Source: Pyropia yezoensis
Taxonomy: Eukaryota; Rhodophyta; Bangiophyceae; Bangiales; Bangiaceae
DNA: 64,000 nt
Assembly: GCA_009829735.1 (NCBI GenBank)
Contig: CM020618.1
Location: 26,074,788-26,138,787, forward strand
Direction: 5' to 3'
Shown here piece by piece: positions 3,001 to 64,000 of this stretch. Both the position numbers and the translations under genes were made by a program. How positions within the stretch are numbered: position 1 is the stretch's first letter; each line of letters starts with the position of its first letter. The notes beneath the pieces are model-generated. The model was not told the DNA's origin, made no database searches, and saw only the letters and a program-made list of their open reading frames with translations.

Positions 3001-3967
3001 AGCCTTCCTAGATCACTGGGTTGCCGCGTATGGCATTCCGGATAGTACACTATCGGACAATGGACCGCAATTTGCGTCTGTACTGTTTCAAGGAGTGCTG
3101 GATATGTTGGGGGTTAAGGCAAACTATGCCACCCCCTACCACCCACAAACTAATGGGCAGGTGGAGCGCTTCAACAAAACTATTGTTAGGCAGCTGCGCC
3201 ATTATGTGAGTGAGCACGTGAAGACGTGGGACCAATACATTTCTATTCTGACCACTGCCTACAATTCGCAGGTTCACTCATCTACCGGGGAAGTACCCCT
3301 CGCTTTTGTGACCCCCCGTCGCGTGCGGTCTATTGCCGTGCGGCGGCCGCTCCCAACTAGGGAGGATGGTGGCAGTACGCCCACTCCTACTGAGAGTAAG
3401 GCGGAGTTCGCTGCTAGGCTTGAAAACCTCATCCCTAAAGTCAGGGCTGAGATGGACAAAGCACAAAAGCGCTACAAGCGTACCTTTGACAAAAAGGTGC
3501 GCAACGCCAAGCATGTCCCCGAGCAGGGTGACTGGGTATTGGTCCACTCACACACCCCAACTGGGGGTAAGTTGGTGTTCCAGACGAAGGGGCCGTACCA
3601 GGTCCTTCGTACTGATGGGCGGCGCTTCACCATCGAAAGTGACGATGGGGTCCGCACAGTGAACGGACAGGACGTGGTCAAAGTTGCACCACCGCCTGCA
3701 GGCGACCCAGCTTGGGCGCGTGCTTTGAAAACGTGGCGCCTGCCCTCGCTGCCTGCAGCCAAACAGGGCCCGCAGGAGTACGTGTTCGACAAGTTCATCG
3801 ACCACGGCTGGGATGAGGATACTGACCGCCTCATGTTGAGGGTGCGTTGGTTTGGCTACAAAGCCAAGGATGATACGTGGGAGTATGTGGAGGACCTTCC
3901 TGCTGAGAAGGTCCGGGCGTACTGTGCCCGGAACGAGATAGACCCTAACAGCCCTCCCTCAACGTGA
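2..3967 (+). CDS. pol: Pol polyprotein of family A copy A1 (PR-RT-RNase H-IN-chromodomain), 5' partial
   Basis: The frame is open from base 2 to a TGA at 3965-3967, so the start lies upstream; in copy C the homologous ORF starts at an ATG overlapping the gag stop. Visible in order: aspartic protease with DTGSGAS (Asp codon about 224); reverse transcriptase with YLDD at 1553-1564; RNase H (DVDASYDQLGC about 1995, ADGLSR about 2335); integrase HHCC zinc finger about 2669-2805; integrase catalytic Asp about 2875, Asp of DNG at 3056, Glu of GQVERF about 3161; chromodomain about 3778-3940 with its Trp and Tyr residues. No stops or frameshifts. Chromodomains of such integrases are known to guide insertion to heterochromatin. 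All catalytic residues I can check are present, so this copy could encode a working enzyme set; activity is inference. Confidence 0.95.
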   Translation, partial: RPKLTTAASAKWAKRTNQPCRILRRPKGVRPPRVGLPKNVNPRRVIAVLTGENFQVAGRVQLAPGRACCVRILLDTGSGASLIRKSLLPKGMRLQRWKSKADHLIDINGGVLPIVGAVTLPTRLGTHEVDVTYGVVENISVPLLLGTPYVVTQVPLICGPEYWVKLMNGETIPILGKGKSVAPVTVSQSKPVCSVREGFTATLRLARKVMLPPNSVAHVDVVTDYAGNGLVHPNPRLARKHQVHVALGTMDSKAGVPWRIQVMNLSSSPKFFKSGAKFGYIDQHEGPVVAVTLSAGASSDPKSGKEKHQAKSAASPRPQVNMEGVPPRLRVQVERLLDQYHKLWDGQLGLMRATQHRIELKPGAPPIRQQPYRGGPRSRALVKEQVARMEALDVIEASNAEWASPVVIVPKVDGTPRFCIDYRKLNESTVKDSYPLPRMDDCLDSLGEANVFSTLDCNAGYWQIPIAPEDRHKTTFTCHCGTYQCKRLPFGLCNAPATFQRAMDMILAGVRWQICLVYLDDIIVFSRSPEEHIGHLGQVFKLLADAGVSLKASKCHLFTQEVEYLGHVVRPGRLSVNEKNLRAIRKAQYPRTQTQMRSFLGMCNVYRRFTKGFAKVAKPLNELVSSTLPKNLPPPSRVEQESFETLRDLLLKPPILAIPRLRGHYILDVDASYDQLGCVLLQQQPDKEYLPVGYFSKGLNSAEKNYGVTELEGLAVVWAVTSLRHYLEGEKFLIRCDHRALQFIFKTDCTNTRLNRWRVRLAPFNFDIEYRPGRQHALADGLSRVPTEGLDTTPVDEDIPIVGVVTRSGQALNPEAPGNKKYLPLSLDEVVKAQAEDPFCKSQRDTLDTVAETRFFLGDDGLLMRRGVFQGTEQLVVPASLKDSILEREHNAPTGGHLGSSKLYQTLRTRYYWPSMVVDIYSWVAACTSCAQNRLMERRPTTAMLLFPAKEPFAALAMDILGPLPVTEEGNQYLLVICDRFTKLTRAIPLAEITAMSVVSAFLDHWVAAYGIPDSTLSDNGPQFASVLFQGVLDMLGVKANYATPYHPQTNGQVERFNKTIVRQLRHYVSEHVKTWDQYISILTTAYNSQVHSSTGEVPLAFVTPRRVRSIAVRRPLPTREDGGSTPTPTESKAEFAARLENLIPKVRAEMDKAQKRYKRTFDKKVRNAKHVPEQGDWVLVHSHTPTGGKLVFQTKGPYQVLRTDGRRFTIESDDGVRTVNGQDVVKVAPPPAGDPAWARALKTWRLPSLPAAKQGPQEYVFDKFIDHGWDEDTDRLMLRVRWFGYKAKDDTWEYVEDLPAEKVRAYCARNEIDPNSPPST

Positions 3968-4078: not shown

Positions 4079-6022
4079 CTAGGCACGCATGCTAGACTCT
4101 CCCACTCCACGGCCCTCGCCCTCACGTGGAGGCGAGCGGCGAGACCCACGCCGATAACGGTCTCCACTCGTTGGAAGGGGCGGCGGCTCCAAGTCGGAAC
4201 CGTCGCGCCCCTCACGGTCGCGCAAGTGGCGCCGACCGTGGCTACTCTTCTGCCTGGTCTTGCGCGCAAGTTTGCGACGCAGACGCTGGACAGACTCCGT
4301 CTCCGATGGGGTAGAGGACTCCGAGACGGAGTAAGACAACTCGTCTTCCGACACGGAGGGAGAGCGCCGCGAGTGACGGCGACGACGGCGAGGAGGCGAG
4401 TATGCCCGGCTCGCACGACGCTTGCCACGCCCAAGTGGGGTTGGCTGGGGCATAATAGCCCCAATGCGAGCCAACTCGGCCGTCATAAACTCCGCCACCG
4501 ACTCGCAACTCGCGGTCGCCACTGCAGTACGAACGCGCTCCTCAAGTTGAGGAGTCTCGGAACTTTGGAGGGTTGCGGTCGACGCGGCCAACCAGGAAAT
4601 GGTGCGCACCAACGTGGTGATCATCATCTCTGAGGTTAGAGGCGTGGGCGGTAACACCAACTTGGGGTATACCGTCAGGAGGGTGGCCCCCAAGTTGGGA
4701 GACACCGGTGTGGATGACTCCACGGCCACGCTGATCGGGATGTTCCCGTGAGGCTGGAAAGGAACAGGAGGAAGCGGAGGGGCACGCCGAGGTGGCGGTA
4801 CCCGGGTGTAACTGCGACCCCGACTTGGGGCCCCCGCAGTAGGTTGAGTCATATGGTCATCATATGAGGGCACAGCCATAACTATGGGCTTGTCCGGGGG
4901 TGGCGCAGTGTGACGATCCACCCCCGGGGCATACGGGTAGTCCCCGATGCCCAACCCCTCTCGTAGGACCACACGGCCGTCGTGAAGTTCACGAGCGACC
5001 CACACGAACTGGCGAAGTGCGCCATCGTCCTTGGGCCCCCGAGTGGGGCGGCGCAACTTGTGCTCAATGCTCTCCCACTCGATAAACTTGTGGAGGCGGA
5101 GCATCTCCTCAAGTAGAGTGAGTTGTCCTGACGAGCACCCCTCAGCAACTAGCTGAGGGGTGAGCTGTTCCAAACCCTGGATGAGCCGGAGGGGGAGATG
5201 CCAGAGCATCCCCCGCCGCTGAACACATGACACCCAGGTCGACATGACCTCGAGGAGCCACTGGGTGGCCAACATGGCCCACACCAGATGATCAGGGCCA
5301 GCCGTCAACATGACGGAGCCGAAGTGGTCAAGCAACCGTGGCAACAATGCCGGGAACCCGTAGGGGACCTCAACTTGAGGCCACCACTCGGGCTTCTTCG
5401 GGTAGTATTGCTCCTTACTGGCAGCAGACTGCTGAGGAAACTCAAGTTGAGCCGAGGTCACCAAGTAGGGACCTCGCCGGAAGTCCTTCTCCATCCGCAC
5501 ATCAAAGTGATGAGTGTGCGGATCGGCCTCGTGAAGGTACGGGGGGCGAGTTGCCACCGCGTCCCAAGTGAAGGTCGGCAAGTCGCCGGGACCCGGGATA
5601 GTTCCCCCGCGGTCCACCATGGCCTTGGCCCGCTGCACGTCCTCGACCTCCTCGTCGTCCAGGAAGGCAAACTGGTCCGTCCTGAAGCCGGCAGGGAACC
5701 CGACCCTACGGGGATACTTCTCCCGTAGGCGGTCCCATACCCGACCCATCGCTGCGCCGAGTCGGCCACAGCGAAGAACAGTCAACCCCTCCTCATACAG
5801 AGGCCAAGCGGGGTAAAACCACCGCCCCAAGGCCTCACGCGGGACAACTTGTCCCGCCTCCGGGGGAGATCCTGCCGTCAACCCAAAGCCGGGTGACGCG
5901 GGAGTCCCACCCCCCGGAGCGATCGCGGAGCCCCCGCCGGAAGTCCCGGCAGGCGCTGCACCGTAGGAGGTGTCCTCCATACGCTCATCGAGAGAGTCCG
6001 TCTCCACTCCCGGAGTCGCCAT
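4079..6022 (-). CDS. Antisense ORF protein (aORF-A), copy A1, 647 residues, family unknown
   Basis: The ORF lies on the strand opposite pol, between pol and the 3' LTR. The start is chosen at the ATG at 6020-6022, in a GCCATGG context that is the same in copies A2, C and D; the frame is open about 170 bp further upstream without another ATG. Seen in order: acidic/Gly-rich N-terminus; a globular middle (about residues 50-330) rich in Trp, Tyr and Pro; a predicted helical block FGSV...HLP...IEW encoded at about 5070-5335; a Pro-rich linker; and a basic Arg/Ser tail about 4110-4420 that looks like a nuclear-localisation or RS-like segment. No zinc knuckle, transmembrane segment or catalytic motif is recognised. 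Copy D encodes the same length with many conservative substitutions, which suggests selection on the protein. Function unknown; an Env role is unlikely without a signal peptide or membrane anchor. Confidence 0.8.
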   Translation of the reverse strand: MATPGVETDSLDERMEDTSYGAAPAGTSGGGSAIAPGGGTPASPGFGLTAGSPPEAGQVVPREALGRWFYPAWPLYEEGLTVLRCGRLGAAMGRVWDRLREKYPRRVGFPAGFRTDQFAFLDDEEVEDVQRAKAMVDRGGTIPGPGDLPTFTWDAVATRPPYLHEADPHTHHFDVRMEKDFRRGPYLVTSAQLEFPQQSAASKEQYYPKKPEWWPQVEVPYGFPALLPRLLDHFGSVMLTAGPDHLVWAMLATQWLLEVMSTWVSCVQRRGMLWHLPLRLIQGLEQLTPQLVAEGCSSGQLTLLEEMLRLHKFIEWESIEHKLRRPTRGPKDDGALRQFVWVARELHDGRVVLREGLGIGDYPYAPGVDRHTAPPPDKPIVMAVPSYDDHMTQPTAGAPSRGRSYTRVPPPRRAPPLPPVPFQPHGNIPISVAVESSTPVSPNLGATLLTVYPKLVLPPTPLTSEMMITTLVRTISWLAASTATLQSSETPQLEERVRTAVATASCESVAEFMTAELARIGAIMPQPTPLGRGKRRASRAYSPPRRRRRHSRRSPSVSEDELSYSVSESSTPSETESVQRLRRKLARKTRQKSSHGRRHLRDREGRDGSDLEPPPLPTSGDRYRRGSRRSPPREGEGRGVGESSMRA

Positions 6023-6364: not shown

Positions 6365-6802
6365 TGTGGCAGTATTGACCCCCAGGTAGGGGGCAACACG
6401 TGCCATGCAAGGGGCGGCAGGCCACTAGCCTGATCCGTTCCTCCCCCTGCATTTGGGTCCATATTCCCTAAGTTCGGGATAGTTAGCTTAGTAGTAAATC
6501 CAACTTGGATTTGAGGGTTTTCTGCATTTATCGTCTTGAATTTTCGTGTGGCCCGGTGGGCAGGTGCTGGGGTGGGAGATTCTGAGTGGCGAGATTCTGA
6601 GTGGACCCTGGGGGGATAAGGGGAGGGACAGCGGGGCTTGGCCCTGCGTCCCCCGTCCCGACCAAGAAACTGTTGGACCACACACCATCTTCTTGTTTGT
6701 CCGTGGGGGATTGCCCCACAACAGGGATAGAGTGTGTGCGACTTGCACTTCTTCCGGTTCCCCCGACACGGGAGGCAGCCCTCGCACACCGCCCCAACTT
6801 GG
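6365..6802 (+). repeat. 3' LTR of family A copy A1, cut by the gap
   Basis: Starts TGTGGCAGTATTGA after the polypurine tract and matches the complete 469-bp family A LTR for 438 bp before the N run, so only about 30 bases are missing. It holds the family's perfect 17-nt palindrome (AAATCCAA, 1-nt spacer, TTGGATTT). Confidence 0.9.
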
Positions 6803-7302: not shown

Positions 7303-9218
7303 CCACGGCCCTCGCCCTCACGTGGAGGCGAGCGGCGAGACCCACGCCGATAACGGTCTCCACTCGTTGGAAGGGGCGGCGGCTCCAAGTCGGAACCGTC
7401 GCGCCCCTCACGGTCGCGCAAGTGGCGCCGACCGTGGCTACTCTTCTGCCTGGTCTTGCGCGCAAGTTTGCGACGCAGACGCTGGACAGACTCCGTCTCC
7501 GATGGGGTAGAGGACTCCGAGACGGAGTAAGACAACTCGTCTTCCGACACGGAGGGAGAGCGCCGCGAGTGACGGCGACGACGGCGAGGAGGCGAGTATG
7601 CCCGGCTCGCACGACGCTTGCCACGCCCAAGTGGGGTTGGCTGGGGCATAATAGCCCCAATGCGAGCCAACTCGGCCGTCATAAACTCCGCCACCGACTC
7701 GCAACTCGCGGTCGCCACTGCAGTACGGACGCGCTCCTCAAGTTGAGGAGTCTCGGAACTTTGGAGGGTTGCGGTCGACGCGGCCAACCAGGAAATGGTG
7801 CGCACCAACGTGGTGATCATCATCTCTGAGGTTAGAGGCGTGGGCGGTAACACCAACTTGGGGTATACCGTCAGGAGGGTGGCCCCCAAGTTGGGAGACA
7901 CCGGTGTGGATGACTCCACGGCCACGCTGATCGGGATGTTCCCGTGAGGCTGGAAAGGAACAGGAGGAAGCGGAGGGGCACGCCGAGGTGGCGGTACCCG
8001 GGTGTAACTGCGACCCCGACTTGGGGCCCCCGCAGTAGGTTGAGTCATATGGTCATCATATGAGGGCACAGCCATAACTATGGGCTTGTCCGGGGGTGGC
8101 GCAGTGTGACGATCCACCCCCGGGGCATACGGGTAGTCCCCGATGCCCAACCCCTCTCGTAGGACCACACGGCCGTCGTGAAGTTCACGAGCGACCCACA
8201 CGAACTGGCGAAGTGCGCCATCGTCCTTGGGCCCCCGAGTGGGGCGGCGCAACTTGTGCTCAATGCTCTCCCACTCGATAAACTTGTGGAGGCGGAGCAT
8301 CTCCTCAAGTAGAGTGAGTTGTCCTGACGAGCATCCCTCAGCAACTAGCTGAGGGGTGAGCTGTTCCAAACCCTGGATGAGCCGGAGGGGGAGATGCCAG
8401 AGCATCCCCCGCCGCTGAACACATGACACCCAGGTCGACATGACCTCGAGGAGCCACTGGGTGGCCAACATGGCCCACACCAGATGATCAGGGCCAGCCG
8501 TCAACATGACGGAGCCGAAGTGGTCAAGCAACCGTGGCAACAATGCCGGGAACCCGTAGGGGACCTCAACTTGAGGCCACCACTCGGGCTTCTTCGGGTA
8601 GTATTGCTCCTTACTGGCAGCAGACTGCTGAGGAAACTCAAGTTGAGCCGAGGTCACCAAGTAGGGACCTCGCCGGAAGTCCTTCTCCATCCGCACATCA
8701 AAGTGATGAGTGTGCGGATCGGCCTCGTGAAGGTACGGGGGGCGAGTTGCCACCGCGTCCCAAGTGAAGGTCGGCAAGTCGCCGGGACCCGGGGTAGTTC
8801 CCCCGCGGTCCACCATGGCCTTGGCCCGCTGCACGTCCTCGACCTCCTCGTCGTCCAGGAAGGCAAACTGGTCCGTCCTGAAGCCGGCAGGGAACCCGAC
8901 CCTACGGGGATACTTCTCCCGTAGGCGGTCCCATACCCGACCCATCGCTGCGCCGAGTCGGCCACAGCGAAGAACAGTCAACCCCTCCTCATACAGAGGC
9001 CAAGCGGGGTAAAACCACCGCCCCAAGGCCTCACGCGGGACAACTTGTCCCGCCTCCGGGGGAGATCCTGCCGTCAACCCAAAGCCGGGTGACGCGGGAG
9101 TCCCACCCCCCGGAGCGATCGCGGAGCCCCCGCCGGAAGTCCCGGCAGGCGCTGCACCGTAGGAGGTGTCCTCCATACGCTCATCGAGAGAGTCCGTCTC
9201 CACTCCCGGAGTCGCCAT
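7303..9218 (-). CDS. Antisense ORF protein aORF-A, copy A2, C-terminus lost in gap
   Basis: Nearly base-for-base copy of the aORF of A1 (4107-6022). I see only a handful of differences by eye, such as one substitution in each of the regions near 7735, 8337 and 8795. The start is the same GCCATGG ATG at 9216-9218; the last residues and stop fall in the gap. The frame is open throughout. It may be a real second copy or a false duplication of the same locus (see findings). Product as for the A1 aORF. Confidence 0.7.
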
Positions 9219-11105: not shown

Positions 11106-11113
11106 CCTTCCTC

Positions 11114-13503: not shown

Positions 13504-13521
13504 TCCCCTGCTGCTCCACCA
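13504..13521 (-). other. Primer-binding site, family B copy B1
   Basis: On the minus strand TGGTGGAGCAGCAGGGGA follows one base after the LTR end. It starts with TGG, the complement of the tRNA CCA tail, as expected for a tRNA primer site. The same sequence follows the 5' LTRs of B2 and C, and a degenerate form follows that of F. I cannot assign the tRNA. Confidence 0.85.
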
Positions 13522-13522
13522 A

Positions 13523-23429: not shown

Positions 23430-25847
23430 ATGGCGACCCCGGGGGTGGAGACGGACTCCCTCGATGAACGTATGGAGGACACCTTCTACGGTGCGGCGCC
23501 CGCCGGGACTTCCGGCGGGGGCTCCGCGGCTGTGGCAGTATTGACCCCCACGTAGGCGGGCAACACGTGCCATGCAAGGGGCGGGAGGCCACTAGCCTGA
23601 TCCGTTCCTCCCCCTGCATTTGGGTCCGTATTCCCTAAGTTTGGGATAGTTAGCTTAGTAATAAATCCAACTTGGATTTGACGGTTTTCTGCTTTCATCG
23701 TCTAGAATTTTCGTGTGGCCTGGTGGGCGGGTGCTGGGGTGGGAGATTCTGAGTGGCGAGATTCTGAGGGGACCCTGGGGGGATAAGGGGAGGGACAGCG
23801 GGGCTTGGCCCTGCGTCCCCGTCCCGACCAAGAAACTGTTGGACCACACACCATCTTCTTGTTTGTCAGTAGGGGGATTGCCCCACAACAGGGATAGAGT
23901 GTGCGCGACTTGCACTTCTTCCGGTTCCCCCGACACGGGAGGCAGCCCTTGTACACCGCCCCAACTTGGGTGTCGCGTGTGCAAGTGGTTTTTGCCACAG
24001 CGGCTACTACGGGGGATGGGACTCCCGCGTCACCCGGCTTTGGGTTGACGGTGGGATCTCCCCCGGAGGCGGGACACGTTGTCCCGCGTGAGGCCTTGGG
24101 GCGGTGGATTTACCCCGTTTGGCCTCTGTATGAGGAGGGGCTGACTGTTCTTCGCTGTGGCCGACTCGGCACAGCGATGGGTCGGGTGTGGGACCGCCTA
24201 CGGGAGAAGTATTCCCGTAGGGTCGGGTTCCCTGCCGGCTTCAGGACGGACCAGTTTGCCTTCCTGGACGACGAGGAGGTCGAAGACGTTCAGCGGGCCA
24301 AGACCATGGTGGACCGCGGGGGAACTATCCCGGGTCCCGGCGACTTGCCGACCTTCATTTGGGACGCGGTGGCAACTCGCCACCCGTACCTTCACGAGGC
24401 CGATCCGCACATTCATCACTTTGATGTGCGGATGGAGAAGGACTTCCGGCGAGGTCCCTACTTGGTGACCTTGGCTCAACTTAAGTTTCCGCAGCAGTCC
24501 GCTGCCAGTAAGGAGCAGTACTATCCGAAGAAGCCCGATTGGTGGCCTCAAGTAGAGGTCCCATACGGGTTCCCGGCACAACTACCCCGGTTGATCGACC
24601 ACTTCGGCTCCGTGATGTTGACGGCTAGCCCAGAGCACCTGGTGTGGGCCATGTTGGCCACCCAGTGGCTCCTCGAGGTCATGTCGACCTGGGTGTCCTG
24701 TGTCCAGCGGCGGGGGATGCTCTGGCATCTTTTCCTGCGGCTTATCCAAGGTTTGGAACAGCTCACCCCTCAGCTAGTTGCTGAGAGGTGCTCATCAGGG
24801 CAACTCACTCTACTCGAGGAGATGCTCCGCCTCCACAAGTTTATCGAGTGGGAGAGCATTGAGCACAAGTTGCGCCGCCCCACTCGTGGGCCCAAGGACG
24901 AAGGCGCACTTTGCCAGTTCGTATGGGTCGCTCGCGAGCTTCACGACGGCCGCGTGGTACTCAAGAAGGGGTTGGGCATCGGGGACTACCCGTATGCCCC
25001 GGGGGTGGATCGCCACACTGCACCACCCCCGGACAAGGCCATAGTGATGGCCGTGCCCTCCAATGATGACCATATGACTCAACCCACTGCGGGGGCCACG
25101 AGTAGCGGTCGCAGTTACACCCGGGCACCGCCACCTCGGCGTGCCCCTCCACTTCCTCCTGTCCCCTAACAGCCGCACGGGGACATCCCGATTAGCGTGG
25201 CCGTTGAGTCGTCCACCCCGGTGTCCCCCAACTTGGGGGCCACCCTCCTGACAGTATACCCCAAGTTGGTGTTACCCGCCACGCCTCTGACCTCAGAGAT
25301 GATGATCACCACGTTGGTGCGCACCATCTCCTGGTTGGCTGCGTCGACGGCAACCCTTCAAGTTTCCGAGACTCCTCAACTTGAGGAGCGCGTTCGTACT
25401 GTTGTGGTGACCGCGAGTTGCGAGTCAGTGGCGGAGCTGATGACGGCCGAGTTGGCTCGCATCGGGGCAATTATGCCCCAGCCAGCCCCACTTGGGCGTG
25501 ACAAACGTCGTGCGTGTCGGGCATACTCGCCCCCTCGCCGTCGTCGCCGACGCTCACGACGTTCTCCCTCCGTGTCGGAAGACGAGTTGTCTTACTCCGT
25601 CTCGGAGTCCTCTACTCCGTCAGAGTCGGAGTCGGTCCGGCGTCTGCGTCGCCAACTTGCGCGCAAGACTAAGCAGAAGAGCAGCCGCGGTCGTCGCCAC
25701 TTGCGCGACCGTGAGGTGCGCGACGGTTCCGACTTGGAGCCGCCGGCCCCGCCGACTGGTGGGGAGCGTTGTCGCCGTGGGTCTCGCCGCTCGCCTCCAC
25801 GTGAGGGCGAGGGCCGTGGGGTTGGAGAGTCTAGCATGCATGCCTAG
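23430..25847 (+). pseudogene. aORF-A of element C, broken by a solo LTR and a nonsense codon
   Basis: Starts at the conserved GCCATGG ATG (23430-23432). It is interrupted after about 33 codons by the LTR at 23531-23999 plus 5-bp duplication; the reading resumes in frame at 24005. A TAA at 25167-25169 removes the last third, including the basic Arg/Ser tail; the ancestral stop is at 25845-25847. Between lesions the frame is otherwise open and similar to the A1 and D proteins, including the FGSV...HLP...IEW block (about 24600-24860). Confidence 0.88.
23531..23999 (+). mobile_element. Solo LTR of family A inside the aORF of element C
   Basis: Complete 469-bp LTR, TGTGGCAG...TTGCCACA, in the orientation opposite to its host element. 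Flanked by GCGGC at 23526-23530 and 24000-24004. A matching duplication around a single LTR indicates insertion of a full element followed by LTR-LTR recombination that deleted its interior. Confidence 0.95.
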
Positions 25848-38206: not shown

Positions 38207-40150
38207 CTAGGCACGCATGCTACACTCCCCCACACCACGGCCCTCGCCGTCACGCGGAGGCGAGCGGCGAGACCCACGCCGATGACGTTCCCCACCCGTC
38301 GGCGGGGGCGGCGGCTCCAAGTCGGAGCGGTCGCGCCCCTCACGGTCGCGCAAGCGGCGACGACCGCGGCTATAAACCCGCTTGGTCTTGCGTGCAGGTT
38401 GGCGACGCAGACGCCGGACAGACTTCGTCTCCGACGGGGTAGAGGACTCCGAGACGGAATAAGACAACTCGTCTTCCGATACGGAGGGAGACCGCCGCGA
38501 GTGACGGCGACGACGGCGAGGAGGCGAGTATGCCCGGCTTGCCCGACGCTTGCCGCGCCCAAGTGGGGCCAACTGGGGCACAATCGACCTAGTACGAGCC
38601 AACTCGGTCGTCATGAACCCCGCTACCGACTCGCAACTCGCGGTCGCCACAACAGTACGAACGCGCTCCTCAAGTTGAGGAGTCTTGGCTATTTGAAGTG
38701 TTGCAGCCGACGCGGCCAACCACGAAATGGTGCGCACCAGCGTGGTGATCATCATCTCGGAAGTCAAGGGCGTGGCCGGCAGTACCAACTTCGGGTGAAC
38801 CGTGGGGAGGGTGGCCCCCAAATTGGGGGATACCGGGGTGGATGTCTCAACAGCAACGCTTATCGGGATGTCCCCGTGCGGCTGGAATGGGACAGGAGGG
38901 AGCGGAGGGGCTCGCCGAGTAGGCGGTGCCCGAGAGTAACTGCGACCCTTACTCGGGGCCCCCGCAGTGGGTTGAGTCATGTAGTCGTCGTGGGAGGCCA
39001 CGGCGACCACGATTGCCTTGTCCGGGGGAGGCGCAGTGTGTCGTTCCACCCCCGGGGCACACGGGTAGTCCCCGATGCCCAACCCCTTCTTGAGTACCAC
39101 GCGGCCGTCGTGAAGTTCACGAGCGACCCATACGATCTGGCGAAGTGCGCCATCGTCCTTGGGCCCGCGGGAAGATCGGCGCAACTTATGCTCGATGCTC
39201 TCCCACTCGATGAGCTTGTGGAGACGCAGCATCTCCTCGAGTAGAGTGAGTTGCCCTGATGAGCACCCCTCAGCAACTAGCTGAGGGGTGAGCTGCTCCA
39301 AACCTTGGATAAGCCGGGGGGATAGATGCCAGAGCATCCCCCGCCGCTGGACACAAGACACCCAGGTCGACATGAACTCAAGGAGCCACTGGGTTGCCAA
39401 CATGGCGAGCACCAGGGGGTCCGGGCTAGCCGTCAACATGACGGAGCCGAAGTGGTCGATCAACCGGGGTAGTTGTGCCGGGAACCCGTGTGGGACCTCG
39501 ACTTGAGGCCACCACTTGGGCTTCTTGGGATAGTACTGTTTTTTGCTAGCAGGTGAGTGCTGCGGAAACTCGAGTTGAGACGAGGTCACCAAGTAGGGAC
39601 CTCGCCGGTAGTCCTTCTCCATACGCACGTCGAAGTGATGACTGTGCGGATCGAGGTCACGTAGGTACGGGTGGCGAGTTGCCACCGCGTCTCGAGTGAA
39701 GGTCGGCGCGTCGCCGGTGCCTGCGGTAGTACCCCCGCGGTCCAACAAGTTCTTGGCCCGCTGCACGTCTTCGACCTCATCCTCATCCAAGAAGGCAATC
39801 TGGTCCGTCTTGAAGTCGGCAGGAAGCCCGAACCTACGGGGGAGCAGCTCCCGTAGGCGGTCCCAGACGCGACTTCTCGCTGTGCCGAGTCGGCCACTGC
39901 GGATCTCCGTCAACCCCTCCTCATACAGGGGCCCAGCGGGGTAGAACCACCTCCTCAAGGCCTCCCGTGGAACAACGCAGCGTACCTCCGGGGGAGATCC
40001 CGCCGCCAACCCAAAGCTGGGTGACGCGGGCATCCCATCCCCCGGAGCGACCGCGGAGCCCCCGCCGGAAGTCCCGGCGGGCGCTGCATCGTAGGACGTA
40101 TTCTCCATCCGTTCGTCCAAGGAGTCAGTCTCCACCCCCGGGGTCACCAT
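38207..40150 (-). CDS. Antisense ORF protein (aORF-A) of copy D, 647 residues, intact
   Basis: ATG at 40148-40150 in the conserved GCCATGG context, stop at 38207. Identical length to A1 with no indel-disrupted frame, although pol of the same copy carries at least six lesions. Differences from A1 are scattered and mostly conservative; the FGSV...VQRRGMLWHLP...IEW block (about 39190-39465) is almost unchanged. The basic Arg/Ser tail is kept (about 38230-38550). This pattern points to selection on the protein before, or independently of, pol decay. Function unknown. Confidence 0.8.
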   Translation of the reverse strand: MVTPGVETDSLDERMENTSYDAAPAGTSGGGSAVAPGDGMPASPSFGLAAGSPPEVRCVVPREALRRWFYPAGPLYEEGLTEIRSGRLGTARSRVWDRLRELLPRRFGLPADFKTDQIAFLDEDEVEDVQRAKNLLDRGGTTAGTGDAPTFTRDAVATRHPYLRDLDPHSHHFDVRMEKDYRRGPYLVTSSQLEFPQHSPASKKQYYPKKPKWWPQVEVPHGFPAQLPRLIDHFGSVMLTASPDPLVLAMLATQWLLEFMSTWVSCVQRRGMLWHLSPRLIQGLEQLTPQLVAEGCSSGQLTLLEEMLRLHKLIEWESIEHKLRRSSRGPKDDGALRQIVWVARELHDGRVVLKKGLGIGDYPCAPGVERHTAPPPDKAIVVAVASHDDYMTQPTAGAPSKGRSYSRAPPTRRAPPLPPVPFQPHGDIPISVAVETSTPVSPNLGATLPTVHPKLVLPATPLTSEMMITTLVRTISWLAASAATLQIAKTPQLEERVRTVVATASCESVAGFMTTELARTRSIVPQLAPLGRGKRRASRAYSPPRRRRRHSRRSPSVSEDELSYSVSESSTPSETKSVRRLRRQPARKTKRVYSRGRRRLRDREGRDRSDLEPPPPPTGGERHRRGSRRSPPRDGEGRGVGECSMRA

Positions 40151-47921: not shown

Positions 47922-48235
47922 CGCGCTATTGCACGGTCTGAGCTGGCGGCCTCGTTTGCGTACGTGCTGTAGTAGCAGTAGATGTAGTGGTAGTAGTAGT
48001 TGCTTAAGTGGTTGCCTAAGCTGCGTCGTAGTGTAGGGTAGGCGTACGTCATGCTTTTTTTTTTCCCGGGCTTCATCGCCGGGTTTTTTTTTTCCCACTG
48101 GAACAACGTGTCTGTGCACTCCGATGATGCAGCCATCGGCACTCACAAACACCCATCCAAACCGCCAAGTCGTTGTCCTCCACTCTCCCTGTCGTTGTGA
48201 TCGCCTCCATCCCATCACAGCCTCCCCGGCGCCGC

Positions 48236-48945: not shown

Positions 48946-49060
48946 TCCCCCCCCCCCCCCCCCCCCCCCCCCCCACCCCCGCCCCCCCCACCGCGCCCGC
49001 CCCCCCCCAGCCCCCCGCCCCCCCCCCCCCCCCACACCTCCAACGCCGCGGCAAACCCGG
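48946..49060. repeat. C-rich low-complexity tract
   Basis: Over 100 bp of almost pure C with few interruptions, at the end of the minisatellite. Prone to replication and sequencing error. Confidence 0.9.
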
Positions 49061-49326
49061 CGGCCAGGACGTTGTCCCCCCCCCACGTAGCGCCACCGAC
49101 AGGTCCTTGTCCCCCTCTCCGGTGGTTCGAACCAGAACCGCGGCTGCCACCACAGCCGCGCTGTCGTCACCGCCGCGCCTCGCCAACAGGCGCCGCCGCA
49201 AAAACCGACACCACGTCTTCCCCCCCCGCACCGACGTGGGCTCAAGGAGTCCTCAAATTTTGTTGCGCTGCAGTGATGGAAGTGAATAGGAGGAACACGC
49301 AAACAAAACAAGGGCGTAGGGTTTAT

Positions 49327-53538: not shown

Positions 53539-53903
53539 TGTAGCAATATGGTTGGCCGTATTGTAACCCTAATATTAGGGGGGGGCTACTTCTAACCCAT
53601 AACCCTCAATATGATAGTTCGTACTGGTTACGGTATCTATATGTTACGTATGACCAGAGGGACTTGCATCTTGGGGTGGGGGGTAGTTAGTAGTGTCTCC
53701 GAGGGTTTATAACGTGGGGGCCGGCGGCGAATCCACCGCCGGCCAAGGTAGAACAACAAACCCCTCCCATTTGGGCTCCCATCTTGGTCCCGTGGCTTGC
53801 GCTCCAAGGACAGCAACCTTGGCCTCCCGGTGACGTTGGTGCCGATCCCCCTTGGTGAGTGTTCCCTGAGAGTGGACGTGCGACGGATTCCTATTGTGCT
53901 ACA
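53539..53903 (+). repeat. 5' LTR of family B copy B2
   Basis: 365 bp, TGTAGCAATATGG to ATTGTGCTACA. Holds a perfect 14-nt palindrome CCCTAATATTAGGG at 53567-53580, a TATA-like box and a strong hairpin (listed separately). The left flank is the pogo-like transposase. Confidence 0.94.
53706..53744 (+). promoter_or_regulatory. LTR TATA-like box followed by GC hairpin
   Basis: TTTATAA at 53706-53712, then an inverted repeat with 9-bp arms GGCCGGCGG (53719-53727) and CCGCCGGCC (53736-53744) around an 8-nt loop. Both features are kept in the B1 LTR (near 13685-13722). Transcription would start at or just past the hairpin, so it may fold at the RNA 5' end. Promoter role is inferred. Confidence 0.5.
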
Positions 53904-53904
53904 T

Positions 53905-53922
53905 TGGTGGAGCAGCAGGGGA
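53905..53922 (+). other. Primer-binding site of family B copy B2
   Basis: TGGTGGAGCAGCAGGGGA one base after the LTR end; same as in B1 and element C. Confidence 0.88.
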
Positions 53923-54068
53923 CGGGTTTCCGTCACCCTTGTGGTGACGCCGTCTTCGGCCCTGGCACACGGATAGGGATCCGGTCCTTTTCTTGTACTC
54001 GTGGTGTTGCGACCTGATCGATTGTGTTGAGTTTTTACCTTTGACTGTGATCTACTGTTATTGTGACT

Positions 54069-56252
54069 ATGTCTACCCAAGAGACGGGGACCGTTCAAGA
54101 TGACGGATCGGCGTCGACGCCGACCCCTGAGGTGACTACGGGAACCGAGATCGGGAACCCGATCGACAACATTGAGACGCCAATGCTTTCCGGTGCCGGA
54201 TCGACGTTTGGCACGGCTCGGACGGCAGGAGGCGGGGGCCCGCCTCAACTGTCGTCGACCGACCTCACTCCGCCGCCTCCTTCACCAGGGGATTCCCTGA
54301 TGGCATCATTGGCCCGCATCGAGGCCCGGTTTTCCGGACTCGACGCTCGCCAGGAGCGGACGGAGGACGCGATGGCAGTGTTGATGTCAACACGCCACAC
54401 GACGGGACCCCGTCGTGTTCCTCCCACACCAGTACGGTTCGAACCGGCCGGACTACTTTCGGAGTCCACCAGGGTCAACCCCGGTGTTGCTACTCCTGGA
54501 CAACCCCCGGACACAGTGGGGTATGGATCCGACTCGTCGGCAGAGTTGGAACGGAGTCACACGGAGCGATACGCTCGGAGCACCCGAAGCGGACTCCGCG
54601 GACACGACCCGGCGGATACTTACGCCGGTGGAGAGTCGGTTATTGGGGGAGGGGGTACCCTCTCACAGTATCCCCACGACGAAGGAGGCCAGGCAGCTCG
54701 GGTTCCCGAGGTGCCGACGCCTGAAGTACCACCGTCAGTGGTGGAAGCTAAGACCGCGCAGGTACCTGCGAGCCTACTGAAGCGGATGGAGTCCGATGAG
54801 TTTGCTCATCAACTGGCTAAGCGACTGGATACCCAGGACGCTGACACGGAGATCATCAACGAAGTCTTCAGGTCGGTACTGACTCCCGAACGTTATCGTT
54901 TGGAAGACCGATCTACCACCGTATCGGAATCGATGCGTAATACGTCGCACCGAGCGATCCGCTCTATGCAGACCCTTATGAAGAGAGTCCCTATGTTCGG
55001 GGGCCCCAACGGACGTCCGTTGGCAGTCATCGGCTTCTTGACAAGCTTCAAGGCAGCCGCAGACAAGGCGCTCGTCAACGAGGGGCTGGCCCTGGAGATC
55101 CTCCCGTTCTTTGTTGAAGAACTGGTGCGAGGCATCCTTCGCCAGGCATCCCCGATGCCGGGAATGAGGGTCGCGGCCACCCCCATGGATTACCGTGGGA
55201 TCCTCAAGGAGCTGCTGAGCAGTTAACTCAGTGAGGACAAGTGCGAGGACCACTACCGGGCCCTGCGCACTGCCACCGCCCAGAGCTGGGAGGATGAGGA
55301 GATGTTCGGACGACGGATTCAAGAGCTCGACTACGAGCTGGGGAAGCTCCTCGGAGAAGGGGAACTACGGGCCATCCTGTTCGCAGGAGTACCCAACTAC
55401 GTGCGGATATCCGCACGGGGAGCCAATACGGCCCGGACGAACTTCAGTCGACTGATGCATATGTGCAAGTCCCTAGGGGACGCCTACCGGGTTCTACACC
55501 CGGAATGTGCCTTGGCCCCGAAGCCCAAGGGTGAGGGAGGCAAGCCCAGTCTTACCCCGGTACCGAGGCAAGAGAAGGTGGAACGTAAGGCCGCACCAGT
55601 ACTGGTGGCGACCGAACATACCCCTACGGGCGAGGATGAACCTCTAGTTGACCAACAGGGCCACCTGTTGCTACCGGCGACGCCGGTGATTGATGAGCAC
55701 GGTACGGTAGCGTACATCGCCCCGGCTGGGACCCAGTTCCAGGTCAACGAGGGAGCAGGACGGCGCGTCCCGTATGTGCGGACGATGGGGTATGCCCCGG
55801 TTACGGGTAACCCCCACCAGCCCCTGCCTACATGGGCAGTACGTACGGAGGCACCTCCGCAGATTGCGGGCCGACCCAACCGGTTGGGAGAGTCCATGTT
55901 CCGCTTGACCCAAGGACCCAAGGCCTACCAGGGAGCAGGCACTCAAGCGCCCGAGGGAGGCAACGGCAGCTACGGGGCTACCCCGATGCGAACTCAAGGA
56001 GGGACCGGCACGTCCGGATGTATGTTGTGTGGGGATCCCCAGCACTGGGTGTCTTCCTGCCCACTCATCCCCGAGAAGTCTCGGCGGGCAGCGGCGCAAC
56101 GCAAGGCATCCACCGGGGGGTATCCCGCCAGAGCACCCGGACCCGCACCGGGTAGGCAGCCAGCTCCAGGTGGAGTACTGGCCGTCGAGGAGGCACCTCC
56201 GCAGCCGGATGTCCCGGCGGACAGCACCCTACCAAGGGCGGGAAACGAGTAA
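54069..56252 (+). pseudogene. gag: Gag of family B copy B2, single nonsense codon
   Basis: ATG 54069, ancestral stop at 56250-56252. Same length and domain order as the B1 gag: acidic Ser/Thr/Pro-rich start, capsid-like middle, CCHC knuckle near 56015-56060. TAA at 55224-55226 replaces a Tyr codon of B1; otherwise one open frame. Confidence 0.92.
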
Positions 56253-56260
56253 GAGGAAGG

Positions 56261-59200
56261 ATGACCGGGGGGCGCTGGGGTAACCCAAGCAAGCCACCCC
56301 GGAGTACCGCGGGGAAAGCCCCACGGAGAGCGCGGTTGAGCCGACGCCGCATCAACCCCCGGGTACACCTTCCGGCCCCGACGACACGGCGTCAGAAGGT
56401 TGATGACCAACCACCGAGGTTGGGAGGAGAGGACGGGAAGCCCCGTCACATGGAACCAGACAAGGGCCCTGTTCAGGATGCCCGAGCTACACCGGATATC
56501 GGTGTAGGCCACGTGCTGTTTACCTTGGAGAACTTCAAGGTATCAGCCACACTGGGGGTTGACCCCCAGTCGACACGATCGTACTACCCTGTACTGGATA
56601 CAGGGGCTGGACCCAACCTTATCCGGAAGGATACCCTCCCGGACAAGTGGCTTCCGCGAGTCAGAGTGACTCGGGGACCCACCATCAAGGACGCAAATGG
56701 TCGCCTCATTCGTACGACAGCAGCGATGTCGCTGCGGGTTACCATCGGGGAACTCACCACGGAAGTCGACTTCCTGGTGTGTGAGACCCTATCGGTGCCC
56801 TGCATACTGGGGTGCACCTTCATCAACGTTCACGTTGATGCAATCCGGCCAGGCCGGAGGACCGTCGAGCTTCAAGAAGCCGACGGGACGAAGCGAGGAC
56901 ACACGGCTATCGTCAGGGACCTGACGCTACAAGGGAGCCACGTTAACGTGGCTGAGGTGTACGCAAGTGTCGAGCCGAAGACACTTCGGTTGGCCAAGCG
57001 AACTCGCTTTGAGCCGTTGTCGGAGACAGTCCTCCCGGTTAACTGTGACCTCGCAGGCATCTGCAGAGTCAAGTCCAACTTGCGGACGTACAAGCGCCAT
57101 GGGTTGACCATGGCCAACGGTCTCATAGACCTCCCATCAGGAGAGTCGTCCCTCCTAGTGATGGCGAACTATCGCCGTAAGGCAGTCACCCTCCCGAAGG
57201 GAACTATCCTCGGGATTGCCGAGCTCTACGAAGGAGATATCCTTACCCCTGACAAGGAAGGTCAAGTGGAACCACTTGAGGTGCTGGCGGTCGCCGAGAC
57301 CACCGAGCGACAGCAACCCGATGACGGGAAGCCTAGTCGACCATCATTACGGGCGGATATTCCGCCGAAGGACCAAGAAGCATTGAAGGCACTGGCCGAG
57401 GCTGACCTCGACCACCTTCCCCCTTCCGTAGCCGAAGGGGTACGACGGATGTTAAGAAAGCATGACGTCATGTGGACAGGCGGAGCCCTGGGTACCATTG
57501 GGGCAACCCAACATCGTATTGACCTGGTACCAGGCGCACGCCCCGCCCGGTCATAACCGCACCGAGCGGGACCTATGCAACGAGAGATCGTTGATGGAGA
57601 AGTGAAGAGGATGAGTGAAGCGAAGGTGATACGACCTTCGATGTCGGAGTGGGGTACCCCAGTCGTTGTCGTACCGAAGAAGGATCAAACCCCTCGGTTT
57701 TGCATCGATTATCGACGCCTCAACTTGGTTACCAAGAAGGACTCCTACCCTTTACCAAGGATGGATGAATGCATCGACTCCCTGGGGGAAGCTACGGTGT
57801 TTACCACCGTCGACTGCAATGCCGGATACTGGCAGATCCCGGTGGCGGACGAGGATATCCCCAAGACGGCATTCATCTGTCATAGTGGAGTGTACGAGTT
57901 CCTAAGGATGCCCTTCGGATTGTCCAACGCCCCCGCTACATTCCAGCGGGCTATCGACATTATACTGTCGGGGGTGAAGTGGCGTAACTGCCTAGTGTAC
58001 CTCGATGACGTCATCGTCTTCTCGCGTAACATGGATGACCATGTGCAACATGTTGACGAGGTACTCACCCTCTTGAGGAACGCCGGGGTAACCCTGCGTC
58101 TGAAGAAGTGCGCCTTCTTCCAACAGACGGTCGAGTATCTGGGCCACCAGATAACCCCTGGTAAACTAGAGGTACTCGAAGCCAATACCCGGGCACTCCG
58201 GGATGCCCGGTTTCCTAACACCCAGACGCAGCTCAAGAGCTTCCTGGGAATGTGCAATGTATACCGACGGTTCGTCAAGGACTTCGCTCGGATAGCTAAA
58301 CCGTTAACGGTTCTTACGAGCAGTACCCTGCCCAAGGTACTCCAACCCCCTTCGCCTAGCGAAGAGGAGGCATTCGAGTCGCTGAAGCGAGCCCTACTAT
58401 CCCCACCCGTCCTTGCGTTACCGCACCGACGGGGTACCTTCGTCATCGATGTCGATGCGTGCGACACCCAAGTGGGATGCACCCTGCTACAGGGGGAGAC
58501 GTTGATCGGTACCGATAACGTTATCCCGGACCTACGTCCGGTAGGCTACTTCAGCCGGACACTCAACCCGGCTGAGCGTAACTATAGTGCCACCGAGCGT
58601 GAATGCCTCGGAGTTATATGGGCAGTGCAACTGCTCCGTCCATACCTGGAGGGCTCCAGGTTCATCGTGAGGTCCGACCACGAACCCCTACGATGGCTCC
58701 TCAACCTTGGTGACAAGGATTCCGATAGCCATGGGAGGCTAGCCCGATGGAGGCTAAAAATGGCCGAGCACGACTACCGTACCGTGTATAAGTCTGGGTC
58801 AACCCACCATCTCGGAGAAGCATTGTCTCGACTCGACACCCCGAGCGGGGATACCCGCCCGGTGGACGAGGACATCCCGGTGGTACCGGTCTGCATGGTG
58901 GGTAATGCTACCCAGGGTATGGTTGACCATACCATGGCACACCTTGCGTGCCCATTGACCCTCGCGGACTTCCGCGAGGCACAAGCCAATGACGACGACT
59001 GTAGACGTCATCGCGCTAACCTCCTGGCCGGCACGGCCGGAATCTTCTCCGAGAATGAAGACGGACTCATATACCGGCGGGCACCCGCCGATGGACGACA
59101 TCAAGTCGTGGTTCCCGTGTCCTTACGGCAAGCCGTCATGGAACGAGAACACGAGAACCCCACAGCCGGACACCCGGGGGGTTCACGTATGTTCGCAGCA

Positions 59201-60427
59201 ATGCGAAGGTTCTTCTATTGGCCAGCAATGGCCGTCGACGTGGTCGACCACGTAAGGGGATGCCACCCCTGTGCGCGCAGCCGCATGAGTCTACATAGGC
59301 AGGCGTCTGCCATGAAGCTATTCCCACCCGATGGGCCCAACGAGCAAGTCGCTATCGACATACTCGGGCCACTTCCGGTAACGGAAGAAGGGAACAGGTA
59401 CATCCTAGTCATGTCTGACCGTTTCACTAAGCTGTCACGAGCGGCAGCCATCCCGAATGATACGGCATACACGATTATGAACGCAGTGGTTGACCACTGG
59501 ATCAGTGCATACGGAGTCATGAAGCAACTCCTCTCCGATAACGGAGCAAACCTTACGTCAGCATTCTGCACTAAGGTCCTGGGCATGTTCGGCATCGAAC
59601 CACGTCGGGCATCCGACTACCACCCGCAAACCAACGGGCAGGTGGAGCGGTTCAACCGCACCATCGTCAAGATGCTACAGTGCTACGTGGCAGAGCACAC
59701 GAACACTTGGGACAGGCTTCTGTCCGTACTCACCCTGGCATACAATGCCAGGCCACATCGGAGCACAAACATCGCTCCGCTGGAGTGGGTCATGCCACTA
59801 GGCGTCGGTAACCTGACGCTGCCGCCAGGCAGGTGCACTCGGTATGATACACCGAAAGGCCGACCGGCCGAACGTATACACCTAGCTTGGTTGTCCAAGC
59901 TATCATGGATGATACCGAAGCTCAAGGGTGCCCTTGACAGAACACAACTTCGATACAAGAAGAACTTTGACACCCGGCTACGGGTGCGCAACGCAACCCT
60001 GGTAACAGGTGACTGGGTCTACATCAGACACCAGAAGTTCCGGGGGAACAAGCTCATGCAACCGGTCAAGGGACCGTACCAGATTCTCCACAGAGATGAC
60101 CACTCTGTTATCTTACACTCTGACACGGAGATCCAACGCATCAGTGTGAATGATGTCACACCTGCTCCGAAGCCGGAACAGCCTCAGCCGGTACCGGCTG
60201 GGTTGCTACATGAAGCTCTTACAACCCACCGGTCAGATGACCCGGTGGGACCGGATGGGATTCCATACCAAGTAGAGAGCGTGGTCGGACACACCGACCC
60301 GGACCTACCAGGACCCTGGTACGTCAAGGTTATGTGGGTCGGATACGACTCACCCACCTGGGAACAGGCGGCGAATATACCCCGCCAACTCCTCATGCTT
60401 TACATGAGGCGACGACGCCTACTGTAA
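56261..60427 (+). pseudogene. pol: Pol of family B copy B2 (PR-RT-RNase H-IN-chromodomain), one in-frame stop
   Basis: ATG 56261, 8 bp after the gag stop, ends at 60427. Protease DTGAGP about 56600, YLDD at 57998-58009, RNase H from about 58440, integrase HHCC about 59142-59280, catalytic core with DNG about 59538 and GQVERF about 59640, chromodomain about 60270-60400. TAA at 57554-57556 lies between protease and RT; the frame is unchanged either side, so it is a point mutation or a readthrough stop. The RNase H motif usually ADALSR is GEALSR here, an Asp-to-Glu change. Confidence 0.93.
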
Positions 60428-60881: not shown

Positions 60882-63254
60882 TCAGTGGGTAGACCCACTG
60901 CCCGAGGGAGGCCACTCACGCGTAAGCGCGTATACCTCCGTGCTCCACCGGTCGGCAATCTCACGACGGTCAATCACCCGAGTTACCTCGGTGCATAGCT
61001 GGACGAGGGTGCTGCAGCCAGCCTCCACGTCCTCCAGAGCTTTCTGGAGGCGGTCAAGCACACCACCGAAGCAACGCGCTGACCCAACCAGCGCAGCACC
61101 TGGGGGGATATCCCCCCAGCTAACAGAGAGACCCTCCCGCATTGCGCGGGCAACAAGGGCGTCAACGCCCTCATACCAGAGACGGGGACCCCCCGTCATG
61201 TAGGACAGGGGCGGGAGGTGACACTGGCGCGGCCAGAGGAGCCACAGGAGCCGACACGGCTACCACCGGAGCCGGTGGCACCTGATACGAGGCTCGGTAG
61301 GACCCTACCGAAGGGTCTCCACCGTAACCCCGGCGGGGCTCCGCCCGACGACGGGACACCTCACGCTCCCCACCCGCAGAGCCCCACTCTCGGGGACGAC
61401 GGCCAACCGCCGCCGGTATCGGGTTACCGAACGACGGGGCAAGGACCTGAAGAGGGTCATGGATAACCATGGGAATACCCAGGTCAGGAACGGCCTCGGT
61501 GGACGCCCACCCATGGCAACTAGGCTCACCCGGCTGAGTACGCCGGATACGCAACGAGTGACGAGGCAAGGGGGAAGCCCCAGCCTGCGGGTCCCGATAC
61601 GGGGGAAGGGCCAACACCCCAGCCCAGTTCACGGCATCGTGAACAGCCAGCAGAGCCTCGAACTCCCGGGCCAACCCGGTCTTGGCAGCTATCAGGTCCA
61701 CGCCCAACTGCGCGATGTGCCGACGGACACCCGTCGGAAGATGAAACAGGCGCCCCTGCCGGCGGACGGACAGCAAGAAGGAGGACGCCTGCCCGAGGGT
61801 AACCTCAAGGGTGAAGGTACCCTGCAACGGGTGGACCGGCCGGGAGGCCAACACACTCCCGAAGTATCGGAGACAGGAGCCGGTGTCAAACCGGAAAGCA
61901 GGGGCGGGTTCCCACCCCTCCTGCCATAGCGGCGGGCGCACGGGAGTGTATACCGGCGCACGACCGTTGCCGGTCTGCAACGCACACGTTATATCCGTGC
62001 GAAACGCATCCGCCATGACACCATGGTTACGTCGCCAGCTCGACGCCGACTTCAACCCCGCCATAGGCGGGTAGGGAGCCGTCAACGACAGATACGGGGA
62101 TACCCCCGGGTAGTAATCAAAGTCGGGATACCGACCGGTACTGCCCACCGTCTCCCCAAACGCAACCGGCTCCGCCGCCGCCGCAATCCCCCGAGCACTA
62201 GCCGGGTAGTCAATCTCCCGCGGCAACGCGGGGGCAATCAGGTCGCATACCCCGAAGGCGGGGTCGAGGTAGACCTCACCCCGTCCCACCCGGGTGCGCC
62301 AGAGCTGCGCATGCCGGTCGTCCGGCTGACTCAGGATCCAATGGTGTTCCACTCGCACCGCGTTCGGCTGGTTGACCAGCCGCACCAACTCCCGCTTCCA
62401 ACTCGGGTCCACCTTGACGCGCCGGGAGGACTCTCCACGGGGATGGGGCAGGTGGAAGTCCACCCGCATCCGCCCATCGGACTCCATTGACTCTTGCAAA
62501 GTCAGGCCTCGGACCCGAGCCACCAAGTCGAACATCGACATGGCGGGTTGACCCGCCGCCACGGCGACGCCGCCACCCAACGGGGCAACCCGGGCAAGAC
62601 CAGGAAGAATAGGGGGCGCCGGGGGGATGCCCCACCGGAAGAGGGGCCGGCGCCGGAGTCGCACGCGGCCGAGGAGAAAGAAGAAGGACGGGCGCCCGCC
62701 CGGAGTAACTACCGGAGTCCACTGCCATCGGTGTAGACCCACCTTGACCACCAGACGCCCGCGGCACCGCGGGCAGAGCATCGCCGCCACCCAGACCCGA
62801 CGTGGGGTACCACGGGGGCAGCACGGGTAGACCCGCTATCCGCCGCAGCGGACACACCAACCGGGCGGGCACCCGCGCCGTCTTGACCCGCCGGACTGGA
62901 CGGGGTGCCAACACCACCATCCGCCACGCCGGCGACACCGTCATGGGGTAGAGCCACGCCGGTACCGGCGACAGAAGCCATCCGGGCCGCCGGAGGAGAA
63001 GCGGTAGAAGCCACCGCTGCACGCGGTTGTCCGCCACCCGAAGGAGCCGTCGTGCCGCTACACACGGACGACAACCCGCCCGGCGCGCCGTCCGGGGCCA
63101 CACGAACGGTCACCCGGTCGTCCTCGTCCTCCGACGAGCTCGCTAGGAAGCACTCGGCGGCGGTGGCGGAGACGGGAACGTCGTCCACCATCACCTCTTC
63201 CCCCTCTTCAGGCAGGAGGTCGTCCTCGCCCCCGGGTACCTGGGGGTCCGACAT
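60882..63254 (-). pseudogene. Antisense ORF of family B (aORF-B), frame broken or spliced
   Basis: Opposite strand to pol, between pol and 3' LTR, as in family A. ATG at 63252-63254 opens an acidic Ser/Glu/Asp-rich N-terminus (to about 62709, another frame); the main part is 62781-61171 with no stop, and the last 105 codons (61199-60882) are in a third frame, the switch falling at a G6 run near 61190. The main part includes a CPRC pair at its start, a basic stretch, then a block YFGSV...VRRQGRLFHLP...VNW (about 61615-61875) that aligns with the aORF-A block. Frame changes may be indels or an intron near 62720-62800. Function unknown. Confidence 0.65.
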
Positions 63255-63830
63255 GGTGCAACCGGGGTGGCAGGGGCGCCCCTTGCAGAAAAGCCGAGGC
63301 CGGCTCGACCCGGTACGAGGAACGCTCGCGCGGACGAGCCAAGGAAGCGCGGGCGCCCGCGCTTATGACCACAAACGGCCACGAGAAGCGCCGCAGGCGC
63401 GCGGGTCGACCCGCGCTCCACGAGGCTACGAACGAGCTCCACCCAGGCTCCTGGGCGGGCCGGGCCACACCCCCGTACGGGGCAACCAAGAGGGGTTCAC
63501 CCCGAAACCGCCCCCGCGAAAGCGGGAGCGGCCGCCCCCATTCACTCGGTAACACGAGAGGGGCTCCCCTACCACCAGACACCTGGTGGCGGATCCGCTT
63601 GCACCACCCCTCGGAAAGGGGGGTCGTAAACAGAACCCGCATCGGGAAATTAACGGTCCGGAAAACGGATCGTGTGTGTACCACACAAAGGGGGCACCCC
63701 CCTCAGACAACCTCGAAAAGGGGTGTCTGTCGCGACGGGGCGCAAAGCCCCACCCGACGGGTAAACGGTCACGCGACCCACTTACATTCGGTAACCCGAA
63801 TGCAACTCGACCCGAGGACGGGCCGAATCT
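63255..63830. other. Leader of aORF-B, no gene
   Basis: About 575 bp between the aORF-B start and the polypurine tract. Short ORFs on both strands look incidental. The equivalent stretch in family A is about 340 bp. Confidence 0.45.
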
Positions 63831-63841: not shown

Positions 63842-64000
63842 TGTAGCAATATGGTTGGCCGTATTGTAACCCTAATATTGGGGGGGCTACTTCTAACCCT
63901 TAACTTTCAATTGAGAGTCCGTACTGGTCACGGTATCTATAAGTTACGTATGACCAGAGGGACTTGCATCTTGGGGTGGGGGGGGTAGTTAGTAGTGTCT
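63842..64000 (+). repeat. 3' LTR of family B copy B2, cut by window end
   Basis: Matches the 5' LTR from TGTAGCAATATGG on, with several differences (for example the palindrome reads CCCTAATATTGGGG here), so the element is not very recent. Confidence 0.93.

Follow-up and report, generated by a model that had tools for sequence, protein, structure and literature searches.

A conserved protein encoded antisense to gag-pol in related Ty3/gypsy retrotransposon families of the red alga Pyropia yezoensis

Open reading frames on the strand opposite to gag-pol, located between pol and the 3' LTR and known as aORF-3R, occur in the plant Ty3/gypsy elements Grande (gene23), RIRE2, Retand (ORF4) and PvRetro13, and in the fungal element Boty (PMC7264820). 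Some of the plant products are nuclear, and they have been suggested to act as regulators of retrotransposition (PMC7264820, PMC11963269). Since most of the proteins are without matches and their function has not been determined, the function of the plant antisense genes is treated as an open question in the two papers (PMC7264820, PMC11963269). TRP28 (PF04195) of Retand, which is confined to flowering plants, is also encoded by an antisense gene between pol and the 3' LTR; this gene marks a gypsy lineage, and a nucleic-acid role has been proposed for its product (PMC11963269). Antisense genes of HTLV are mentioned alongside the plant genes (PMC7264820, PMC11963269).

The antisense gene described here, from Ty3/gypsy elements of the red alga Pyropia yezoensis, has the placement that defines aORF-3R, between pol and the 3' LTR and antisense to gag-pol. 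Like the plant and fungal frames it is as conserved as the other element proteins and is carried by many copies, but the copies were collected by searching with the antisense frame itself; its product is, in the searches made here, without similarity to known proteins, as are most aORF-3R proteins (PMC7264820). It differs from them in belonging to a red algal clade, and no described family was matched in those searches. It shares with TRP28 the antisense position, the marking of a gypsy lineage and a proposed nucleic-acid role (PMC11963269), but PF04195 was not found in the algal antisense proteins tested. The env-like ORFs of plant LTR elements occupy the same element region (PMC7264820), but in the sense orientation, whereas the algal frame runs in the opposite orientation and has no transmembrane stretch. 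The resemblance to HTLV, another reverse-transcribing element with a regulator-encoding antisense gene near its 3' LTR, is one of how the gene may work. The HTLV antisense gene is named HBZ.

The window is a stretch of 64,000 nucleotides of the P. yezoensis genome (contig CM020618.1, positions 26,074,788 to 26,138,787). This genome has been described as three chromosome scaffolds in which LTR elements are the predominant repeats (PMC7423979); the sequence surveyed here comprises 107.5 Mb in 11 contigs. The closest named proteins for the window are from Pyropia vietnamensis, a bangialean red alga. Two element families, A and B, show the same order of genes. In family A, pol (protease to integrase, 2..3967, plus strand) ends at 3967, the antisense frame aORF-A occupies 4079-6022 and the 3' LTR begins at 6365. 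In family B, pol (RT to integrase, 57557..60427, plus strand) ends at 60427, aORF-B occupies 60882-63254 and the LTR begins at 63842. The stop codons of pol and aORF-A are separated by 111 nt, while the distance from the antisense ATG to the 3' LTR is 342 nt in A and 587 nt in B. Each LTR is preceded by a purine tract; that of family A (6365..6802, plus strand, starting TGTGGCAG...) is cut by an N gap, and that of family B (63842..64000, plus strand, starting TGTAGC...) continues past the end of the window. The gag region of family B, in two frames (54051..56249, plus strand), is homologous to the gag of family A at 29941-31506 on the minus strand.

aORF-A has 647 codons from an ATG at 6022 (4079..6022, minus strand), within a stop-to-stop frame of 724 codons (4079-6253), and a database protein of 576 aa starts at the same Met. 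The window's aORF-B (60882..63254, minus strand) is spread over three overlapping frames, at 60882-61259, 61171-62835 and 62709-63362, the last with an ATG at 63254. Since many B copies elsewhere in the genome have a single frame of 825-1021 codons (it is shorter in others), the copy in the window is frame-broken. Copy D, an A-type aORF at 38207..40150 on the minus strand, is 83% identical to aORF-A. In copy C, also A-type, the element lies on the minus strand and the antisense region, at 23901..25847 on the plus strand, is broken into 23901-25169 and 25197-25847. A further A-type aORF (7303..9218, minus strand, approximate ends) sits beside the 500-N gap, in DNA 99.8% identical to 4107-6802. 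The copy B2 (10028-13886), which the earlier note had counted among the aORF-bearing copies, matches B solely at 53538-57338, on the LTR and gag side, so B2 is without an aORF and aORF-B occurs once in the window. In the genome at large no stop interrupts any of the best 68 of 3674 candidate A copies (40 tie for the top score, at 100% identity) or 70 of the best 78 of 3315 candidate B copies; because the best candidates alone were scored, both samples lean towards intact copies. The 2.7-kb stretch that holds the family A aORF and 3' LTR is present twice in the window, at 4107-6802 and 7303-9997, with 99.8% identity between the two copies, which are separated by precisely 500 N (6803-7302); either a tandem insertion or duplication in the assembly could account for this.

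The most conserved parts of the two proteins are at 5075..5323 in aORF-A (FGSV ... WHLP ... LH..IEW) and at 61624..61863 in aORF-B (FGSV ... FHLP ... VHD.VNW), both on the minus strand. The earlier note, made from the letters alone, had matched the two proteins by eye over these blocks, and its motifs are found where it had placed them, FGSV at 5323-5312 and IEW at 5083-5075 in A, FGSV at 61863-61852 and VNW at 61632-61624 in B. The relationship that it had proposed is borne out by BLASTP (47/189 identities, E=2e-8) and by the profile-profile comparison that it had suggested (hhalign, E=5.6e-6, probability 86%, from shallow profiles). aORF-A also matches the open B copy L012 (BLASTP, E=4.8e-9) and L045, a member of a third family, F3 (E=1.2e-8). 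In local alignment the A and B cores score 120; 500 shuffles average 33.5 and never exceed 67 (z=16.8), and the reversed B core behaves against A as a shuffle does (z=-0.1).

A bridging family, E, was found through the sampling of other integrases. The antisense protein of its member L068 shares 36% of 287 aligned residues with A (E=2e-45), and the identity of E to three B copies is 24-25% (E 2e-5 to 4e-5); the match between E and F3 is weaker (E 1e-4 to 3e-3). The corresponding core z-scores are 52.9 for E-A, 10.1 for E-B and 7.8 for E-F3. The columns invariant in a nine-row alignment are the G, L, L, L, H and W of R.G.L(W/F)HLP ... LH..(I/V/L).W, all of them inside the block first picked out by eye. 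The C-terminal parts of A, B and E look alike by eye, and a common C-terminal region was considered and rejected on shuffle z-scores of 1.0, -0.3 and 1.9; since the downstream parts have no significant similarity, the core alone is common to A, B and E. Proteins of B, of E and of P. vietnamensis (L012, L023, L068, P0004 and P0013 among them) have an LLL[PS].RP motif ahead of the core. It is present in 46 of 81 sequences, near-copies counted, and is absent from L001 (an A copy), P0001 and L044/L045.

The position beside pol is nearly constant. Tblastn on 58 loci, which represent 52 distinct places (six occur twice) and include the A and B copies of the window itself, finds pol opposite and adjoining the antisense frame in 51 of the 52 places, in families A, B and F3 and their relatives. 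The exception is L046, in which pol was not found in 3.7 kb. In family E, all six loci have the frame antisense to pol, with two retaining just the C-terminal part of the ORF. Among the fetched E copies, L068, L069 and L070 have the core, L067 has part of the frame and L066 is without the core; L063 has an antisense gene without the core at 1542-3157, with GC-rich repeats upstream of it.

Families A and B, which the earlier note describes as differing in LTR, gag and pol, are not unrelated, being 46% identical in pol and 25% identical in gag (E=1e-14). Since gag and pol are homologous too, the antisense ORF has the appearance of a third gene that one Ty3/gypsy clade has inherited together with these two. 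The idea that the protein has been kept across lineages therefore stands for element families, but not for independent lineages, as the gene is inherited within a single gypsy clade whose gag and pol are also related. The comparison outside this clade used six integrase-bearing stretches among 150 matches listed, one of which is family E. The other five loci represent about two families, four being 82-98% alike and L061 about 67% alike to these. In L059, L060 and L061, the pol stop is followed within 12 nt by a purine tract and a TGTAAGG start like that of an LTR; L062 has the same sequence behind a shifted frame, and L064 aligns with L060 at 98% through this sequence. The TGTAAGG sequence is probably the LTR, to judge by its initial TG and the purine tract before it. 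All five sampled loci outside the clade thus have an LTR-like sequence directly after pol and no aORF. A profile of the antisense protein gave nothing convincing against the six integrase-bearing stretches (best E 0.13).

In an integrase tree of 13 rows, which are short (119-231 residues) and include several near-copies, the eight rows from aORF families are split from the five without the frame with support 100/100. The simplest reading is a single origin at the base of the clade, followed by vertical inheritance. At least four aORF families, diverged from each other and with many near-identical copies, are present in one genome; since gypsy families without the frame are present in the same genome, the role of the antisense protein is testable by comparison.

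Selection on the antisense frame was estimated as dN/dS by the Nei-Gojobori method with our own script, all six frames being compared. aORF-A gives a dN/dS of 0.228 when compared with copy D over 647 codons and of 0.19 with copy C over 611 codons, close to the values for the family A pol, 0.147 and 0.205, respectively. One opposite-strand frame has its wobble position in common with the antisense frame and is low for that reason, at 0.33 (copy D) and 0.26 (copy C), while the remaining four frames are near or above 1. Between B subfamilies the antisense frame gives 0.37-0.50 and the wobble-sharing frame slightly more, 0.45-0.54 (0.495 vs 0.536, for example). Two E copies give 0.30 vs 0.33, and the E pair L063-L068 gives 0.50 vs 0.59 over 261 codons. 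The core of B compared with F3 has a dN/dS of 0.25, with synonymous sites near saturation. L044 and L045 give 0.82, with another frame lower (0.58), and are too young a pair to tell. The antisense frame is under purifying selection, by a margin over the wobble-sharing frame that is small in B and E. It is also as conserved as the other proteins of the elements, given that dN/dS in family A is near that of pol and that A and B are about 25% identical in both gag and the aORF.

Homology, purifying selection and the position opposite pol together support the earlier proposal of an undescribed antisense-encoded retrotransposon protein that extends across element families, and the maintenance of the gene suggests an inherited accessory protein and not a chance reading frame. 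The GC content of the window is 61%, which makes stops rarer, and most of its 268 ORFs of at least 80 aa are surely spurious. Nevertheless, open frames produced by chance in GC-rich DNA and by shared nucleotide ancestry, without function, are barely credible here, because dN/dS values far under 1 are found for the antisense frame and, to a lesser degree, for its wobble-sharing partner but not for the other four, and because the A and B proteins retain 25% similarity without a DNA match of at least 150 nt at E<=1e-10. The same evidence bears on the antisense transcript. A role of the RNA itself, in self-limitation through dsRNA or siRNA or in interference, with the protein being secondary, has been raised as a possibility for the plant antisense ORFs (PMC7264820). 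For the algal gene it is very unlikely, since the amino-acid sequence is under selection and the core protein is conserved across families whose DNA has diverged.

Given that the interval between pol and the 3' LTR is the site of env-like genes (PMC7264820), the product might instead be a structural protein of the particle or envelope, encoded by a second capsid-like or an Env-like gene in antisense. The antisense orientation and the lack of a transmembrane stretch do not fit an envelope protein, the lack of similarity to the elements' own gag (z -1.0 to 0.5 in four comparisons) does not fit a capsid, and the absence of a Pfam match speaks against either, which makes a structural protein distinctly improbable. 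A host gene or a nested mobile element captured by the elements is unlikely, even though the presence of the gene in one clade and its absence at the five sampled loci outside fit one acquisition. No homologue was recognised outside the elements among the at least 18 matches listed, which are known from protein entries alone, and 51 of the 52 fetched places adjoin pol. Such a capture concerns the origin of the gene and is compatible with the explanation that we favour, namely a co-inherited third gene, in antisense, of a Bangiales gypsy clade that encodes a soluble accessory regulator, which on balance is probably correct.

The antisense proteins have a low-complexity N-terminus, a core of about 190-270 residues (PYL ... 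FGSV ... R.G.L(W/F)HLP ... LH..(I/V/L).W), an Arg-rich linker and a variable C-terminus. The first 50 residues have a net charge of -5 in A, -15 in B, -7 in F3 and -1 in E, and are acidic in three of the four families. A block of 50 residues with a net charge of +4 follows the core in all four families tested, which have other positive blocks as well, and an Arg/Ser-rich tail is found at the end of A alone. No transmembrane stretch is predicted in four proteins, in which the maximum 19-residue Kyte-Doolittle mean is 1.23-1.51. The usual threshold for a transmembrane stretch is 1.6. AlphaFold2 gave unreliable models for parts of B (384 residues, mean pLDDT 41.4) and A (361 residues, 35.3).

Homology, position and selection, all observed in one genome, point to a common ancestor that already had the gene. 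According to the favoured explanation, the ancestor of the Bangiales Ty3/gypsy clade would have had a third gene opposite gag-pol, in the interval between pol and the 3' LTR, which would since have been passed down with gag and pol. Its product would be a soluble protein, presumably expressed from an antisense transcript that starts in or just inside the 3' LTR, and may regulate the element as an accessory factor, acting in trans on chromatin or nucleic acid. A nuclear or nucleic-acid role is suggested by the composition of the proteins and by analogy with the plant Grande/Retand and HTLV proteins. A bolder version, about which we are rather doubtful, is that the gene arose independently of the antisense genes of flowering plants and fungi and is now required in the element cycle, where it might serve as a trans-acting antagonist of host silencing or as a switch between sense and antisense transcription. 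If that were true, LTR retrotransposons across the eukaryotes would have arrived at antisense accessory genes repeatedly, by convergence, and the core would be a new fold.

The earlier impression that no recognised family is involved agrees with the searches, in which the antisense proteins tested have no match in Pfam, PHROGs or NCBIfam, and none was found in IMG/VR, phage records or, by sequence, the PDB. A profile search of about 5.8 billion proteins (E<=0.1), which lists only proteins that share short words with the query, gave at least 18 relatives, while P0010 is absent among the matches listed although it belongs to the query alignment, so that true relatives are missed. A single-sequence search with aORF-A gave at least one protein, from its own family. 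Two weak matches of profile A3 to PsbX-type photosystem II proteins in the PDB (E 0.047 and 1.2), which cover profile positions 453-537, behind the core, were taken as chance. A relationship of the core to TRP28 was also rejected: neither the genome (E<=10) nor the antisense proteins tested contain a match to PF04195 (Transposase_28), and the conserved positions given for it in PMC11963269 do not align with the core by eye.

No antisense ORF in red algal elements was found in the titles and opening lines of abstracts of the open-licence papers listed, and the word 'antisense' is absent from the main text of the genome papers of P. yezoensis (PMC7423979) and Neoporphyra haitanensis (PMC8752119). 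Antisense additional ORFs are already known, but as far as the searchable literature and databases go, both the protein family and the red algal clade that carries it appear to be new. The named relatives among the matches listed are eight 'hypothetical proteins' of Pyropia vietnamensis (P0004-P0009, P0013 and P0014), which can now be annotated as relatives of a retrotransposon gene. Internal pieces are skipped in some of them, perhaps as introns of the gene models.

The window and the fetched loci have several further features. A 645-codon ORF on the plus strand (48124-50061) has no match in a Pfam search and contains repeats of about 60 bases at 48221-49041. Direct repeats of about 317 bases, several of them in tandem and 71-77% alike, are located at 17386-18884. 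Elements are nested or adjacent in two of the loci, a fragment of a B-type aORF adjoining an A copy at L005:2-754 and sequence resembling the gag side of family B lying on the other strand, beyond the LTR-like region, at L064:2645-4501.
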